Below, piece by piece: positions 1,303 through 15,685 of a DNA stretch of 25,997 nt; the stretch's first letter is position 1, and every line of letters starts with the position of its first letter. The notes below the pieces were generated by a model that was not told the DNA's origin, did not search any database, and worked only from the letters and a program-made list of their open reading frames with translations. A program made the position numbers and the translations under genes. Source of the DNA: Linderina pennispora (taxonomy: Eukaryota > Kickxellomycota > Kickxellomycetes > Kickxellales > Kickxellaceae); contig NW_024468394.1 of NCBI RefSeq assembly GCF_002104995.1, forward strand, positions 1 through 25,997, given 5' to 3'.

Positions 1303-1325
1303 TATTAATATTACTCCATCAACTA

Positions 1326-2547
1326 GCTGACGATGATGCTTTTGACCCTGCAACATTTGTGAAAAAGGGATTCTTTCGTTCAATTTATTTATTCATTTAT
1401 CGCAACCTGAAGGCGAAGACTGTCATATCTGCCGAGGATTTCGTCAACCGGAAGGACAGGTCAGAACTGTCGAGTGCAGATTTCGGTGATGTAGTTAGAT
1501 ACCATATTTATGAATATCTATTGCATAATGGCGATATCGAGCTACATGGCGTGCGCGAAATGAATCAAGTAGCAACATACGTGGATACCGAGCTGATGAC
1601 AGCATACAAGAACAACATTGTGTTGCACTGTGGCACTTGCCTACAGCGGATTCTGGCCAAATTGATTGATATTCGCAGCCGCAAAACACACACACAGTAC
1701 AATGGGCAATGTGTCCAAGGCTGAGTTCAATAACGCATGTCAAGTGTATATTTATACGCCTGCACAGAAGCTCCGCCAGGCAGTTGCCTCTAGGCACCCT
1801 GATCTCAGTGTGCTCACCCACCGCCGATGCTTGCAATCTACAACAAGCTGGCACCAGTCCTTAATGCCTATGATGCCAAGGTAAATCCACTTAAGCATCT
1901 GCGTGCATATATTCGCCTATGCCAGCTTATCGAGAATGAGCAGCTTGGCAAGTCTCCCCCCAATGCTTGCCTCTGCGGACATCATGGATCCCAGGCCATG
2001 TGCGCTTAGACAAGCAATAATCAAGCAGGTGTTTATTTCGAAAAATACGCGAGCAGGTTACAGAGATCAAGCAGCAAAGAGGGCAGCAACAGAGGCAAGG
2101 AAAGCAGCAGAAAAGGCGAAAAATTGGCCAAGAAGGCTGCACACGAAGCAGCGAAGATGCCATCGATTAAACAGAGCTACTGCAGCAGACATTCCGGCAT
2201 GTTCCCAACCCGCGGCCCTACCAGAGATCGAAGAACCCAGCTGTGAAGTGCCATGGCCTTCTCCGCTGTACAAGCGAGTCATGTAAGCGGGCCATGGCAC
2301 AATACAGGCGGCCTATTCGTCTCGGCTCTTGAACCGCGATCTCGCAGCAGTTCTAAACTTCAGGCTCATTTTCCAGTCACTCTGTGATTCAGGCAGTATT
2401 CCTGAACGGTTCTGTCGCTCTACGGCCATTGCTGCCAATGCTTCTGGCACCACCCCTGCAACAAAGAGGCCGCGCAAGAGGCGTGCAGCAGCAGCAGGCG
2501 ATTCTGTTGCCAGCAGCAGCGAGCCAGCGCTGAAGCGTCTGCGCTGA
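1326..2547 (+). pseudogene. Fanzor nuclease pseudogene (copy 1)
   Basis: Fragments of the Fanzor protein lie in several frames. An N-terminal block (KKGFFRSIYLFIYRNLKAK, about 1359-1690) is followed by a shift into NVSKAEFNNACQVYIYTPAQ. Next come KVNPLKHLRAYIRLCQLIE and an alanine/lysine-rich block, then the C-terminal block LLNRDLAAVLNFRLIFQSL, ending in ALKRLR and a stop at 2545-2547. Compared with copy 2, the deletion near 2185-2190 removes the region matching residues 47-440 of its RuvC half. The RuvC-I Asp, the RuvC-II Glu and the first zinc-ribbon cysteine pair are therefore gone, while the NRD motif with the third catalytic Asp is kept. Several stops and frame changes remain. It cannot encode an active nuclease. 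Confidence 0.85.
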
Positions 2548-2601
2548 GCAGGCCACCAAGGTGGGAGATGTCCATGATCGACATTGCACCAACAACCATC
2601 C

Positions 2602-2686
2602 GACACGTTCAAATGACCGGTTCGCCGTGATACTCTTATCTACGTGTCAACCCATGCTGACTAGCAGCCGAGCTTGCATCGCGAGC
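2602..2686 (+). other. Structured 3' end of Fanzor copy 1
   Basis: A perfect 7-bp inverted repeat, GACACGT (2602-2608) and ACGTGTC (2642-2648), encloses CGG-TTCG-CCG. A short TGCT/AGCA hairpin follows, then a terminal hairpin at 2672-2686 with arms GCTTGC and GCGAGC. The same three elements are found in copy 2, where the terminal arms pair perfectly. CTAG at 2696-2699 followed by T marks the end of shared sequence apart from a further AT. The region could be the transposon terminus, part of a guide RNA, or both. Confidence 0.6.
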
Positions 2687-2726
2687 GGGGTAATTCTAGT
2701 ATACTCTAAGATCCGAATAAGACATT

Positions 2727-8426: not shown

Positions 8427-9125
8427 CTATCTCTGTCCTTCTGGATGCAGAATCTTCTCCAGCCGCTGTTTTAGCGTAAACTGTGCGTACTGCGGCGGCG
8501 CGCCTCCCAATACCTTAACACACCCTGGTTCCAGCTGAAATACCCCAAGTGGCATAAGCTTTCCGCCCGAAACCATCACCTTGGTCCCAATTGGCAACTC
8601 CACATGTAGCTGCTCTATCTTGGCCATTTCCACGGCCGAAAACCTCGTCCTGCCATCTGTCAGCATAAGCTTCAGCATTCCGCGCGGGATCTTAGGCTCC
8701 TGATCCACTGGTTCCACGGGCTCCGCTGCTTCGCCTGTATTGACTTCTTCGTCCTCGTCCAAGGGCGGCAGATAGCTCGGCCGCATCCCACGCACCTCAT
8801 AGTCCTCTTTGGCGCGCACAGCCTCGAGCATGGCGAACTTGCTCACGCCAATGTCCATGATTTCTTGAATCTGCAAAAATGCGCCTGGCGGGTTTAGGAA
8901 CTGCCTGGCTTGCAAATCAGCAGAAAGTGTGGCCTGGCAGGACTCACCGATCTCGGAGTTCAGCAGTTGTTCAACAACTAGTCGGATCTGTGCCTCGATA
9001 TGCAGATTGCTGGTGCCCGCCATGTCATTGTTGATGTGGTGCAAACAGTGAGTCAGCCAGCTTGGATTCAGCTGCACACCGTATCGCCGCTTAATTGCGT
9101 CAGCCACTGATGCTCTGTCGATCAT
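8427..9125 (-). CDS. RMI1: RMI1, RecQ-mediated genome instability protein
   Basis: A 232-residue protein, close to yeast Rmi1 (241 residues) and lacking the long C-terminal extension of animal RMI1. The N-terminal helical region (WLTHCLHHIN, then IEAQIRLVVEQLLNSEIGES) is followed by ILQI-like GAFLQIQEIMDIGVSKF, then an acidic linker (DEDEEVN). The OB-fold begins at PRGMLKLMLTDGRTRFSAVEMAKIE and runs through VKVLGG. RMI1 holds the Sgs1/BLM helicase and Top3 together in the dissolvasome, which resolves double Holliday junctions and limits crossovers. The frame is intact. The 3' end of Fanzor copy 2 lies only 150 bp upstream of this start codon, so the element occupies the promoter side and may influence expression. 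Confidence 0.85.
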   Translation of the reverse strand: MIDRASVADAIKRRYGVQLNPSWLTHCLHHINNDMAGTSNLHIEAQIRLVVEQLLNSEIGESCQATLSADLQARQFLNPPGAFLQIQEIMDIGVSKFAMLEAVRAKEDYEVRGMRPSYLPPLDEDEEVNTGEAAEPVEPVDQEPKIPRGMLKLMLTDGRTRFSAVEMAKIEQLHVELPIGTKVMVSGGKLMPLGVFQLEPGCVKVLGGAPPQYAQFTLKQRLEKILHPEGQR

Positions 9126-9274
9126 ATTAGCTTAATGTGGTAGGAGAATAAAGCAACAGTATATGGAAATACTCTGTTTTTATGACTCAGACTATGTACT
9201 CAATTGTTACGGATAATCGTTTGTGGGTACGCTCTTCAACAAACCACAGTTTCAATGAAGTTTGCTAATAGATA

Positions 9275-9425
9275 CTAGAAATATCTGCTCGCGATGCGAG
9301 CTCGGCTGCTAGTCAGCATGGGTTGACACGTCGATAAGGGCATCACGGCGAACCGGTCATTTGAACGTGTCGGATGGCTGTTGGTGCAATGTCGATTATG
9401 GACATCTCCCATCTTGATTGCCTGC
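9275..9425 (-). ncRNA. Candidate omega/guide RNA region at the Fanzor 3' end
   Basis: In TnpB and Fanzor systems the guide RNA comes from the 3' end of the nuclease gene and the adjoining transposon end. This 151-bp stretch from the stop codon to the element end is highly conserved between the two copies and contains strong pairing potential. There is a 7-bp stem (9365-9371 with 9325-9331), a short hairpin (9305-9318) and a terminal hairpin at 9287-9301 with 6-bp arms GCTCGC/GCGAGC and a 3-nt loop. If the family rule holds, the guide would be read from the flanking bases below 9275. Expression is not shown by sequence. Confidence 0.4.
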
Positions 9426-11108
9426 TCAGCGCAGACGTTTCAGGGCTGGTTCGCTGCTGCTGGCAGCAGAATCACCTGCAGCTGGTCCACGCCTCTTGTG
9501 CGGGTTCTTTGTTGCAGGGGTGGTGCCAGAAGCATCGGCAGCAATGGCCGTAGGGCGACAGAAGCGTTCAGGAATATCGCCTGAATCACAGAGTGACTGG
9601 AAAATGAGTCTGAAGTTTAGAACTGCTGCGAGATCGCGGTTCAAGAGCCGAGACGAATAGGCCCGCCTGTATTGTGCCATGGCCCGCTTACATGACTCGC
9701 TTGTACAGCGGAGAAGGCCATGGCACTTCACAGTTGGGTTCTTCGATCTCTGGTAGGGCCGCGGGTTGGGAACATGCCGGAATGTCTGCAGTGACTTTTC
9801 GCAGCAGAACGGGCACATCGACGATGTCCGGAATTCGTCGATCAGATAGACTTCAAAGCCATGGTGCTTGAACTTGTCGCGCCATCCCTTGCCACGAATC
9901 GGCGCATGGTGTCGGGCCATTGGCGCACTCCAATTGCCCATGATCAGCACTGGATCTGGACCGAACTTGCTCCGGAGTTTTGCGGCAAGCCTGTGGTCTG
10001 CACGGGCCTGGTTCATGAATGAATCAAGGCGCAGCTTGCGGTGAAGCGGGTACACCCTGGGACTGGTCCCGACACCCGGATGGGCCTTCCAGCGCCTCTG
10101 GTGCTGCTTGTTTGACTTAGTGAGCTGCTGCTCTGGTAACCTTCGCGCTGTCATCGTGCTGGCATAAAACGGTGCTAGGACACACCGCACAGATGCACGG
10201 GCAGCAACGTAGGCACGGAATTTTGCTGGGCTAAGGGTCCGGCAGCAGTGCTTGGAAAGCTCTGCCTCTGCTCTGCGGACAGCATCTTCTGGGACTTGAT
10301 CCTTTGTAGCCCGACGAATCCTGTCATAGTGGCGCAGCTTGAGCTCCTTATTGTGCTGCTGCCGTGTGTAGCGGTAGAGCATTCTCTCACCCTCTTTCCC
10401 ATTGCTGCTATTTTCGTGCATCATGTATAGCAAATCGCCCCGACCTGGATCGATGAATACACAGCGGCCTTTCAGATTCTGCAGCTCTGGCTGTGGGATC
10501 TGGTGGATATAGCGACAGTCAGCTATAGTATTGCCTCCCACAGCATCACCTCCTGCAACATCACCTGTAGCATCGCCTGTAGCATCGCCTCCCACAGCAT
10601 CGCCTGTAGCATCGCCTCCCACAGAATTGCCTCCTGCAGCATCGCCTCCCGCAGCATCGCCTCCTGCACCATCAGCATCTACTGCACCATCAGCCTTGGA
10701 TATCTTGTCTTGCAACAAAATGCATATCGTTACACCATCTGTTGTTGCCATTCCGTGGAATTTTCTATCACCATGCGCCTTAAATGGCTTTGATGTTAGA
10801 TCTGCGACCCGGCCCCACACATCCCACACAGGTTGTGTGATCCCTTGGACCGGGTCGTGTGCACAGACTGGGGGTGCTGGTGCATATGCACTGTTAAGTG
10901 CTGCAACAGTGTCTGCTGCTGCCGCCGATGCAGCAGCAAGTGAATCAGCTGCTACTGCTGCAGTTGCTGCAGTAGCCTCTGTTGCATCCGATGGCATCTT
11001 CGCTGCTTCGCGTGCAGCCTTCTTGGCCAACTTTTCAACCCCTTTCTGCTGCTTTCCTTGCCTCTGTTGCTGCCCTCTTTGCTGCGTTGATCTTGGTAAC
11101 CTCCTCAC
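9426..11108 (-). CDS. Fanzor (eukaryotic TnpB-like RNA-guided nuclease), RuvC and zinc-ribbon half
   Basis: This 560-residue open frame carries the catalytic half of Fanzor. The RuvC-I Asp is D220 in VFIDPGRGDLLYMM. The RuvC-II Glu is E425 in LIDEFRTSS. The zinc ribbon is C432-x2-C435 with C468-x4-C473, and the RuvC-III Asp is D492 in LLNRDLAAVLNFR. YRYTRQQHNKELK (245-257) is a typical Fanzor segment after RuvC-I. The first 40 residues are in frame with lysine/alanine-rich sequence that overlaps the end of the N-terminal frame by 74 bp. Residues 42-75 are Ala-rich, and about 142-192 form a Gly-Gly-Asp-Ala repeat just before RuvC-I. Fanzors make RNA-guided double-strand breaks in DNA. All catalytic residues are present, but the N-terminal half is in another frame, so activity depends on that split. 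Confidence 0.88.
   Translation of the reverse strand: MRRLPRSTQQRGQQQRQGKQQKGVEKLAKKAAREAAKMPSDATEATAATAAVAADSLAAASAAAADTVAALNSAYAPAPPVCAHDPVQGITQPVWDVWGRVADLTSKPFKAHGDRKFHGMATTDGVTICILLQDKISKADGAVDADGAGGDAAGGDAAGGNSVGGDATGDAVGGDATGDATGDVAGGDAVGGNTIADCRYIHQIPQPELQNLKGRCVFIDPGRGDLLYMMHENSSNGKEGERMLYRYTRQQHNKELKLRHYDRIRRATKDQVPEDAVRRAEAELSKHCCRTLSPAKFRAYVAARASVRCVLAPFYASTMTARRLPEQQLTKSNKQHQRRWKAHPGVGTSPRVYPLHRKLRLDSFMNQARADHRLAAKLRSKFGPDPVLIMGNWSAPMARHHAPIRGKGWRDKFKHHGFEVYLIDEFRTSSMCPFCCEKSLQTFRHVPNPRPYQRSKNPTVKCHGLLRCTSESCKRAMAQYRRAYSSRLLNRDLAAVLNFRLIFQSLCDSGDIPERFCRPTAIAADASGTTPATKNPHKRRGPAAGDSAASSSEPALKRLR
10536..10690 (-). repeat. GC-rich minisatellite inside the Fanzor gene
   Basis: On the plus strand, units such as CATCGCCTCC and CATCGCCTGTAG recur about a dozen times with 12- and 15-base spacing. 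On the coding strand this gives alternating GGDA, TGDA and GGDAV units without breaking the frame. It sits between residues 142 and 192, directly before the strand carrying the RuvC-I Asp. Confidence 0.8.
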
Positions 11109-12030
11109 GTGTTTTCGAAATAAACACCTGCTTGATTATTTGCTTGTCCAAACGCACATGGCCTGGGATCCATGATGTCCGCAGAGGCAAGCATTGGGGA
11201 GGAGACTTGCCAAGCTGCTCATTCTCGATAAGCTGGCATAGGCGAATGTATGCACGCTGATGCTCAAGTGGATTTACCTTGGCATCATAGTATCGGCTGT
11301 CTTTAGCGAATCTGTACTTGCAATCTACAGCAAACTGGCACCAGTCCTTAATGCCTATGATGCCAAGCATCGGTGGGGTGAGCACACTGAGATCAGGGTG
11401 CCTAGAGGCAACTGCCTGGCGGAGCTTCTGTGCAGGTGTATAAATACACACTTGACATGCGTTATTGAACTCAGCCTTGGACACATTGCCCATTGTACTG
11501 TGCAGTGTGTTTTTGCGGCTGCGAATATCAATCAATTTGGCCAGAATCTGCTGTAGGCAGATGCCATAGTGCAACACAATGTTGTTCTTGTATGCTGTCA
11601 TCAGCTCGGTATCCACGTATGTTGCTACTTGATTCATTTCACGCACGCCATGTAGCTCAATATCGCCATTATGCAATAGATAATCATAAATATGGTATCT
11701 AACTACATCACCGAAATCTGCGCTCGACAGTTCTGACTTGTCCTTCCGGTTGACGAAATCCTTGGCAGATATGACAGTCTTCGCCTTCAGGTTGCGATAA
11801 ATGAATAAATAAATAAAACGAAAAAAACCCTTTTTCACAAATGTTGCTGGGTCAAAAGCATCCCCGTCAGCTAGCTGATGGAGTAGTATCCATCGTGCAA
11901 GCATGTATGTATGCTCTTTGATGGTATTAACGCTGTGTACAAATTGCTCTAGGCGGGGCAACATAGAATCACGGAAGCCAATACCACCAAGTGATGTCTT
12001 TATGACAGTAGTGCTGCGGGTAATATCCAT
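11035..12030 (-). CDS. Fanzor N-terminal half (frame-split from the RuvC half)
   Basis: A 331-residue frame starts MDITRSTTVIKTSLGG and includes FIYLFIYRNLKAK, NVSKAEFNNACQV and PLRTSWIPGHVRLDKQII. The last motif (PLRTSxIPxHxxID-like) is characteristic of Fanzor proteins, just ahead of the linker to the RuvC domain. This half should form the REC and wedge parts that hold the guide RNA. It ends in AAKRAATEARKAAERG and a stop. The downstream half lies in a frame offset by one base, joined within an A/G-rich stretch (GCAGAAAGGGG, near 11050-11060). Copy 1 is also out of frame at this point. A single-base change or a recoding event could rejoin the halves. No plausible intron was seen: the local GT-AG candidates are far shorter than the 98-99-nt introns elsewhere in the window. 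Confidence 0.85.
   Translation of the reverse strand: MDITRSTTVIKTSLGGIGFRDSMLPRLEQFVHSVNTIKEHTYMLARWILLHQLADGDAFDPATFVKKGFFRFIYLFIYRNLKAKTVISAKDFVNRKDKSELSSADFGDVVRYHIYDYLLHNGDIELHGVREMNQVATYVDTELMTAYKNNIVLHYGICLQQILAKLIDIRSRKNTLHSTMGNVSKAEFNNACQVCIYTPAQKLRQAVASRHPDLSVLTPPMLGIIGIKDWCQFAVDCKYRFAKDSRYYDAKVNPLEHQRAYIRLCQLIENEQLGKSPPQCLPLRTSWIPGHVRLDKQIIKQVFISKTREEVTKINAAKRAATEARKAAERG
11278..11367. repeat. 12-bp inverted repeat inside the Fanzor coding region
   Basis: CTTGGCATCATA at 11278-11289 and TATGATGCCAAG at 11356-11367 are perfect reverse complements enclosing 66 bp. In copy 1 the enclosed part is present in the opposite orientation, so this inverted repeat appears to have promoted an inversion. 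Confidence 0.9.
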
Positions 12031-12599
12031 TTGAGAAGTTCAATAGGCAAGTAAGAAGAGAAATGATGCTGTTCAGTTTTGCTGTATTGCGTATGCATAG
12101 CATTAAGAACTTTTTATTAATAATGATCTGGCTTGCATGGTTCTTGGGGCCCTTAGCATTGATACAGTCTCTTGAATCAGTCTATACAGACTGGATCCAT
12201 TGTGGCCCAAATACTACTGCTTACACATGTTCATAAGACAAATTAATTTGTAAAATAAACCCACAAATATTGCATGACTGCTAGAAGAGCTATATGGCCT
12301 TATTCAATAGGTGCTCATAAATAAATATCCTAAGAGTGTTGCGCAGCCGGTGATGACCACCATGATGACATCATGGAAGTTATCGGGCCAACTGACAATG
12401 AGAGCAGCTCTTGCGCTGAACCAATGGAGATATCTAGTGGAGACCTATGACCACTACAATAACAACTCGTCACCCTGGTTTCACTGATGAGGTCAGATGC
12501 CGCACAAGATCAAGGAGTTTACAGAGCAACCCACCCAAACTCGTGTTGAAGCTTAAGAGTTTTTTTAACCAATTAAATAATTTCTAGCGGACGGTCGGA

Positions 12600-12627
12600 C
12601 ACTTTTTGGACTATAAAATCTTATATA
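12600..12627 (+). repeat. Dispersed repeat, unit 1
   Basis: This 28-base segment, starting CACTTTTTGGACTATAAAAT, recurs on the opposite strand at 15556-15582 with only one T missing from the T-run. Flanks are unrelated. It may be a fragment of a transposon terminus; upstream lies CGGACGGTCGGAC. Confidence 0.8.
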
Positions 12628-12635
12628 AAGGTAGG

Positions 12636-12660
12636 TAAAGATAAAGATAAAGATAAAGAT
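12636..12660 (+). repeat. TAAAGA hexanucleotide tandem repeat
   Basis: Four perfect copies of TAAAGA plus one T, directly after the dispersed repeat unit. Confidence 0.95.
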
Positions 12661-13498: not shown

Positions 13499-13570
13499 GC
13501 CCTTATGGCTCAGCGGCAGAGCGTCTGTCTCGTAAACAGAAGGTCCTGAGTTCAATTCTCAGTGAGGGCA
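13499..13570 (+). tRNA. tRNA-Thr (anticodon CGU)
   Basis: The 72-nt sequence folds as a cloverleaf. Acceptor arms GCCCTTA and TGAGGGC pair with one G-T wobble and are followed by discriminator A. The D-arm contains the A box (TGGCTCAGCGG). The anticodon stem TCTGT/ACAGA closes the loop CTCGTAA, giving anticodon CGT, which reads the Thr codon ACG. The T arm is CTGAG-TTCAATT-CTCAG and contains the B box. There is no intron. A run of five T residues at 13574-13578 is a good RNA polymerase III terminator. The CCA end is not encoded, as expected in eukaryotes. Confidence 0.95.
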
Positions 13571-15063: not shown

Positions 15064-15685
15064 GGTTTAAAAGGAATATTTGTTGGTGGGTTGTGGTGTA
15101 TGGACAAGAAACCCCGATGGTCCTGCTGCGGTTGCTAATATACCCTGCATTCGACTAGTGTCGTCACCGGGAATGCATGCACGGATGTTATTTTTGGGGA
15201 ATGGGGAACGGTATCGAGATAATAGCACGCGGGGCGAGACGTGCTGGCCATCTAGGCCACGAAGTGTCTCCGTTATCGTCCGCGCCCATCTATTTGACCA
15301 CCAATCCCGGCTGTGCATTGATTTGTAGCGAGGTCTCACCGACACGGGGCCGGCCAGGAAACAGCCACAAAAAGTCAGTCATTGGATGCATGGCGCACCG
15401 GGAGTGCATAAAGGGAATGCTTTTGCAGAAAACGTCAACCGTGCAGCCGCAAGCAGATATCCATCGCCAGGAACGGCTTCTGGAACCGTGCTGAACCCGG
15501 CTCTCTGCCAGAACCCAGTCTGAAAATACCCGCGTATTTAATAAGCAACAGTAAATATATAAGATTTTATAGTCCAAAAGTGAATTTGTAAGACATTGCT
15601 TACGCTAAAGTAAAGAGCGCACATGCTTGGGGGAGGGGCGTTGTGTTCCGAGAACTGCCGACTGGGGGACAACTCGTGTGCGTCT
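15064..15685. promoter_or_regulatory. AOX upstream region and spacer to ISA2
   Basis: This 622-bp spacer between two minus-strand genes should hold the AOX promoter and the 3' flank of ISA2's neighbour side. No clear TATA box or known operator was identified. The dispersed repeat (unit 2) lies at 15556-15582, near the ISA2 3' end. Confidence 0.35.
15556..15582 (-). repeat. Dispersed repeat, unit 2
   Basis: Read on the minus strand, these 27 bases match 12600-12627 except for one T fewer. The two units are in inverted orientation 2.9 kb apart, with the tRNA and AOX genes between them. Confidence 0.8.

Follow-up and report, generated by a model that had tools for sequence, protein, structure and literature searches.

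We analysed a 25,997-nt stretch of the genome of the fungus Linderina pennispora (contig NW_024468394.1; hereafter the window) and found that its Fanzor1 gene, which encodes a Cas12-like RNA-guided cutter, lies inside a high-copy Helitron. Other Helitrons in the same genome encode RepHel, a HUH Rep and Pif1 helicase transposase, share their 5' end with the Fanzor element and in several cases are joined to it. On balance, we consider it probable, though far from certain, that the two enzymes act together on the element: RepHel would paste copies, and the RNA-guided Fanzor would cut empty sites.

The Fanzor1 gene occupies two overlapping minus-strand frames, 11035–12039 (334 aa, ATG at 12030) and 9426–11135 (569 aa), with an overlap of ~100 bp. 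The C-terminal half matched Fanzor1 of Parasitella parasitica (PpFz1; 9cf0) with E = 8.1e-60 and the N-terminal half with E = 3.2e-23, while an intact natural copy on contig C46 reached E = 2e-83; these values exclude chance similarity. The original prediction had recognised a Fanzor by its RuvC triad, zinc ribbon and N-terminal motif, all of which were borne out. The triad, then numbered D220/E425/D492, corresponds to D229/E434/D501 of the 569-aa frame (numbering +9, equal spacing) and aligns with D383, E541 and D606, the published catalytic residues of SpuFz1 (PMC10432273; numbers are those of chain 8gkh minus 394). The four cysteines C441, C444, C477 and C482 lie between E434 and D501, and the N-terminal motif PLRTSWIPGHVRLD aligns with CFPLRRTFIPCYMTVD of PpFz1 within a conserved block of 28 aligned sequences. 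The protein follows the Fanzor1 pattern D-X(125,275)-[TS][TS]-X-X-[C4]-X(5,50)-RD (PMC3627910), with D229, 207 residues, T437-S438, two residues, C441/444/477/482, 17 residues and R500-D501. It also carries FIDPGR (DPG motif) and ATTDGV (TDG motif, its Asp present in 33 of 34 aligned proteins); the DPG motif and the TDG motif of the WED domain are Fanzor1 features (PMC10711439).

The predicted fold is that of a Fanzor1 and resembles the Parasitella and Spizellomyces Fanzor1 structures (structure comparison, VIA-align). TnpB, Cas12 and Fanzor2 structures ranked lower and may be distant kin. Profile searches gave no match above cut-off for the window protein: Pfam TNB fell under it (E 0.048) and NCBIfam TnpB far under it (0.78), so these profiles are not taken as proof. 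Matched by both sequence and predicted fold, the window gene is a Fanzor1 rather than a Fanzor2, and by analogy with published Fanzors the family may perform RNA-guided DNA cleavage. Protein searches returned 12 relatives when the 8000 candidates with the most words in common with the query were scored and 108 when residues 525–830 served as query. Coemansia, Dichotomocladium, Rhizopus, Mucor and Parasitella are among the relatives with names; no row in either search was named Linderina, some rows being nameless.

The ends of the element were defined by aligning 20 copies fetched with their flanks. The 5' terminus reads 5'-TCTTTACC, and at the 3' terminus a hairpin is followed by eight or nine bases and then CTAG. 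The predicted span of 9275–12030 was thus exact at its low end, the transposon's 3' terminus, and too short at its high end, as the 5' end lies at 12641. In all 18 rows used, which represent 17 sites, the 5'-TC was preceded by A. This tally includes one RepHel element (L041), counts the window and L021 as one site, and omits L022, L030 and L040, which are joined to RepHel, and L037, which is nested in Helitron-like repeats. In several copies, the window and L021 among them, the 5' end is preceded by a (TCTTTA)n repeat whose length varies; flanks were read before this repeat, and the boundary in L031 was set by our choice. Behind CTAG, T followed in 40 of 40 copies and TA in 39 of 40, so that the insertion site can be written A|TA. 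Visual inspection of the aligned ends showed no terminal inverted repeats or target duplications, in keeping with a Helitron. Indeed, 5'-TC, a 3' hairpin followed by CTRR-3' and insertion between A and T are all present, as in canonical Helitrons (Helitron1), whose described marks are 5'-TC, a 3' hairpin, CTAG-3' and insertion at AT (PMC4778049). Allowing up to three mismatches, the 3' pattern was found at 211 places in the genome and the 5' pattern at 143, with backward controls giving 0 each.

Further Helitron sequence was seen around some of these ends. Directly behind the Fanzor element of L040, the 3' flank (about 650 bp) is a short, diverged Helitron derivative that has a CTAG|TA end of its own, and directly behind that of L025 two Helitron 5' ends, one forward and one inverted, form a folded-back pair. 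Within the window, 25–28 nt at 15555–15582 (+) are identical or nearly identical to the Helitron 5' end, with no Fanzor or RepHel match adjoining.

No RepHel is encoded within the 3.4-kb Fanzor unit. A search with the PF14214 profile yielded six similar RepHel loci and one divergent locus (C68). The common 5' motif lies 1.7–1.8 kb upstream of all six similar loci on the same strand, and hence of at least six of the seven overall, as judged from about 100 of the 143 motif places listed. One RepHel element, L041, was read end to end: it has three long open frames, which are putative exons, with matches to Helitron_like_N (2e-49) and PIF1 (2e-78). Its 5' end is 96% identical to that of the Fanzor element over 99 bp, and its 3' end differs in sequence while having the same design.

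The RepHel-type 3' end occurs eight times in the genome, and in all eight cases the common 5' motif follows 26–30 nt downstream on the same strand, so that RepHel-type 3' ends are joined head-to-tail to the common 5' end. A Fanzor coding sequence lies at the normal distance behind six of the eight, and at C157:1114964 an open Fanzor lies ~4 kb beyond that distance. The region C157:1107572–1120585 holds, in series, a RepHel locus, a RepHel-type 3' end, a common 5' end and a Fanzor frame that is fully open, and includes ~4 kb of unread sequence. Five of the eight 3' ends belong to RepHel loci, with 5'-to-3' distances of 5.5–5.6 kb in three, 3.5 kb in C112 and 10.6 kb in C171; the sixth RepHel locus (C212:572350) has no RepHel-type 3' end nearby. 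The other three (L022, L030 and L040) are shortened RepHel units. Their RepHel parts begin at differing points and their 3' flanks all differ, a pattern that suggests independent insertions of a joined unit. The Helitron Helraiser is known to read through its terminator, with capture of downstream DNA (PMC4778049), and Helitrons inserted in tandem have been described elsewhere (PMC5148889). Taken together, these observations make RepHel plus Fanzor the probable autonomous form and the 3.4-kb form a single Fanzor unit.

Searching the genome with the N-terminal 300 residues of the Fanzor protein gave 133 matches (131 of 308 candidates scored), some copies contributing more than one piece. Nine of these lie in stop-free open frames at least 857 codons long, many listed copies are partial or contain stops, and most are 85–97% identical to the window protein. 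Among eight intact copies, the ratio of nonsynonymous to synonymous substitution (dN/dS) was 0.30 (28 pairs, mean dS 0.089; 21 elements read), indicating purifying selection that preserved protein function during the spread of the element.

In published Fanzors, the right end of the transposon yields the guide RNA (omega-RNA) and the flank acts as the guide, and Fanzor1 scaffolds include bases of the transposon end (PMC10432273, PMC10711439). The 151-nt 3' region of the window element can form a long predicted stem, and an internal ACTAG can pair with the terminal CTAG and the first flank T around the hairpin. The latter pairing is kept in 39 of 39 distinct sequences, which hold hardly any variation by which to test it; the flank letters TA were appended to every row of the fold alignment, the T being real in 40 of 40. 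Diversity was 0.045 in the 3' region and 0.032 in its last 64 nt, compared with 0.058 at third codon positions and 0.060 in the 5' untranslated region. At Rfam gathering thresholds, the window yielded a tRNA only. The target-adjacent motif (TAM) of PpFz1 is 5'-ATN-3' (PMC11423790), and the insertion site A|TA contains it. Counting TA with the scaffold would give an ATA TAM, a register that we infer.

A check for a second version of the locus covered 17 of the 20 fetched sites (all but L025, L037 and L040) and found one at 11, of which seven were occupied on both contigs and four were empty. Six sites (L023, L030, L032, L034, L036 and L039) had no clear second version; the apparent empty sites of L036 belong to a family of repeats and were not counted. 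For L029 and L038, the flanks lie ~2.1 kb apart on C169 and 1.7 kb apart on C212, respectively, and enclose element sequence together with a 3' end. The flanks of L028 are 1.2 kb apart on C1, where the insert was not identified; this site was counted as occupied. More broadly, several small contigs (C161, C173, C203, C140 and others) resemble second versions of parts of large contigs, with the element present or absent.

All four empty sites carry changes at the point of insertion, and two of them keep A|TA. The empty site of L026 has a T-to-A change within A|TA, its 5' flank being another repeat of which only nine bases match there. The L024 site has eight extra bases and one substitution, the L033 site has 11 extra bases, and the L031 site has lost ~42 bases between GTCAC repeats. 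The right end of this deletion lies 17–22 bases inside the flank, where cuts like those of SpuFz1, which fall after bases 16–17 and 20–21 (PMC10432273), would be placed. Such altered empty sites fit resistant alleles of a homing nuclease.

By analogy, the RepHel/Fanzor Helitron is best read as a eukaryotic counterpart of IS200/IS605. RepHel would copy the single Fanzor unit in trans or, alternatively, the joined RepHel-Fanzor unit, bypassing the inner CTAG terminator, and would paste the copy between A and TA. The last ~100–150 nt of the element would be transcribed as omega-RNA with a scaffold ending in the Helitron hairpin and CTAG|T, and the host flank behind CTAG|T would serve as the guide. 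Fanzor would then cut the unoccupied homologous site, with A|TA as the TAM, and repair templated by the occupied copy would spread or restore the element, at times incompletely. A stricter form of this proposal makes Fanzor and RepHel one peel-paste-and-cut system, in which the A|TA target is itself the TAM, the hairpin and CTAG|T belong to the guide scaffold, each insertion writes its own guide, and a homing drive converts empty alleles, leaving altered, resistant empties and internally deleted copies. We advance this form tentatively, as possible if doubtful.

A number of points weigh against the homing reading. Helitrons are replicative and donor loss is the usual reason for TnpB homing, so the loss that homing would make good need not arise. 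Both ends lie 5.5–5.6 kb apart in only three of the six RepHel loci, a search for N-terminal matches detected no Fanzor behind the RepHel 3' end on C2, and the joined units could be tandem insertions, as known for Helitrons elsewhere (PMC5148889), rather than a joint transposon. Taken in full, the 3' region shows no stronger conservation than codon positions 1 and 2 (0.035 and 0.036), and its predicted fold shows almost no covariation, the pairs being nearly invariant. As proof of a guide RNA the fold was rejected, with z = -1.0 and 31 of 200 shuffles as good. The RepHel 3' end of L041, which has no Fanzor, contains a comparable inverted repeat; together with the shuffles, this suggests that the ACTAG/CTAGT pairing may serve transposition. 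Likewise, the A|TA rule could reflect a preference of RepHel alone, and the changes at empty sites are possibly excision scars or ordinary divergence, the set being four sites without a neutral control, in which second contigs could be alleles or duplications. Guide RNA, TAM and cutting are predictions for this family.

In a rival view, Fanzor is a captured passenger, with RepHel alone moving the Helitron, joined units being ordinary tandem insertions and the nuclease conferring no homing advantage. Many copies without a full frame have indeed spread, as 211 3' ends contrast with nine full open frames among 133 N-terminal matches, and both capture by read-through (PMC4778049) and tandem insertion in other genomes (PMC5148889) are on record. 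However, dN/dS of 0.30 among the eight intact copies at a mean dS of 0.089 indicates that the protein's function was kept while the element spread, and the junction to a common 5' end, invariable for RepHel-type 3' ends (8 of 8), was seen behind only two of the 20 fetched Fanzor 3' ends (L025 and L040). We therefore regard a mere passenger as unlikely.

The excess of dispersed 3' ends over N-terminal matches (211 versus 133), reminiscent of the 'ghost' loci of Spu-1 (PMC10432273), could mean that Fanzor acts in trans as a regulator, or as a weapon against rival elements or alleles, with gene-less copies supplying guides, instead of helping to copy its own element. Each guide would, however, be the element's own flank and aimed first at its own empty site, which makes such a role improbable in our judgement. 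Least of all do we expect the family to be dead, with only relics left and the window copy a pseudogene of no wider meaning. The window copy does carry a frame change and an inversion, and many listed copies are partial or stop-bearing, but nine frames of at least 857 codons are open, most listed copies are 85–97% identical to the window protein, the element ends are sharp, and the RepHel of L041 has three long open frames as putative exons.

Among the closest known systems are CRe-1, CRe-2 and CRe-3 of Chlamydomonas (Bao and Jurka, 2013; PMC3627910), in which Fanzor1 is likewise the gene of a Helitron with a 5' end like that of RepHel Helitrons, and in which 5'-truncated copies are many and 3' ends in excess. 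These belong to Helitron2 (TTTT target, 5' hairpin) and were described as non-autonomous, whereas the window family has canonical TC...CTAG ends, an A|TA target and RepHel units head-to-tail with the Fanzor unit. Spu-1 of Spizellomyces, with SpuFz1, is alike in having Fanzor1 as its sole gene, gene-less ghost copies and the same catalytic residues; it differs in its terminal inverted repeats of 33 bp and its putative TA duplications, and no transposase was found for it (PMC3627910, PMC10432273). In the latter, Saito et al. proposed a parallel with HUH transposons. Helraiser and Helibat share the 5'-TC, 3' hairpin, CTAG-3', AT insertion and 3'-end read-through, while their description, as excerpted, mentions neither a Fanzor nor an invariant A as second base of the flank (PMC4778049). 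The proteins of the window family differ from PpFz1 (9cf0–9cf3) in that an Ala/Gly-rich linker separates their TDG and DPG motifs. The likeness to IS200/IS605 (TnpA and TnpB) would be one of principle, pairing a HUH single-strand transposase with an RNA-guided RuvC nuclease and a guide from right end and flank; the partner in the window family is a RepHel with PIF1 helicase and not a TnpA Y1 transposase.

These elements bear on the question of what Fanzors contribute to their transposons. In this genome, a HUH transposase and a Fanzor have a common 5' end and are physically joined; among the matches listed from titles and abstract openings of open-licence literature on Fanzor/TnpB with Helitron, HUH/RepHel or Kickxellales, there was no report of a RepHel-Fanzor unit. 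Because one 26-Mb genome combines these joined units with full open frames, gene-less copies and pairs of occupied and empty sites, homing, co-evolution of TAM and target, and a Helitron end as guide-RNA scaffold become directly testable.

Table 1. Features of the Fanzor1 Helitron and its second copy in the window.
Feature	Position	Strand	Remarks
Whole Helitron, Fanzor1 as sole protein gene (3367 bp)	9275..12641	-	5'-TCTTTACC at 12641, CTAG-3' at 9275; ends sharp against copies at unrelated sites
Fanzor1 N-terminal half (REC/WED side), first frame	11035..12030	-	ATG at 12030; 3.2e-23 to PpFz1 9cf0
In-frame inversion of 51 bp flanked by short inverted repeats; private to window copy	11317..11367	-	1 of 22 compared copies so oriented
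Fanzor1 C-terminal half (TDG motif, RuvC, TNB zinc ribbon), second frame	9426..11135	-	
RuvC Asp D229 of 569-aa frame (DPG motif)	10449..10451	-	Aligned to SpuFz1 D383; D in 33 of 34 aligned proteins
RuvC Glu E434	9834..9836	-	Aligned to SpuFz1 E541; E in 32 of 34 aligned proteins
Four-cysteine zinc ribbon C441, C444, C477, C482	9690..9815	-	
RuvC Asp D501	9633..9635	-	Aligned to SpuFz1 D606; D in 31 of 34 aligned proteins
3' non-coding region, putative omega-RNA (reRNA) scaffold	9275..9425	-	Stem 9371-9365/9331-9325, ACTAG 9313-9309, terminal hairpin, CTAG; predicted folds
Helitron 3' terminal hairpin GCTCGC-ATC-GCGAGC	9287..9301	-	
Host flank: TA and putative guide	9253..9274	-	TA after CTAG in 39 of 40 other copies; guide role proposed from published Fanzors
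Second, shortened copy	1308..2699	+	First ~753 bp of element missing and ~1.17 kb deleted internally; 3' end and CTAG|TA intact

The window copy of Fanzor1 is broken by the 51-bp in-frame inversion and by one frame change, which falls inside the overlap of the two frames. On C46, 9.8 kb including flanks are 97% identical to the window region and hold an open frame of 894 codons. The 51-bp flip was considered as a programmed switch and rejected, as it was found in only one of 22 copies. Two neighbouring genes border the element. A tRNA gene at 13499–13570 (+) (Rfam RF00005, 69.5 bits) lies ~0.9 kb beyond its 5' end, and an RMI1 homologue at 8427–9131 (-) (PF08585, 3.7e-25) starts ~150 bp downstream of its 3' end, with the putative guide in the stretch between.

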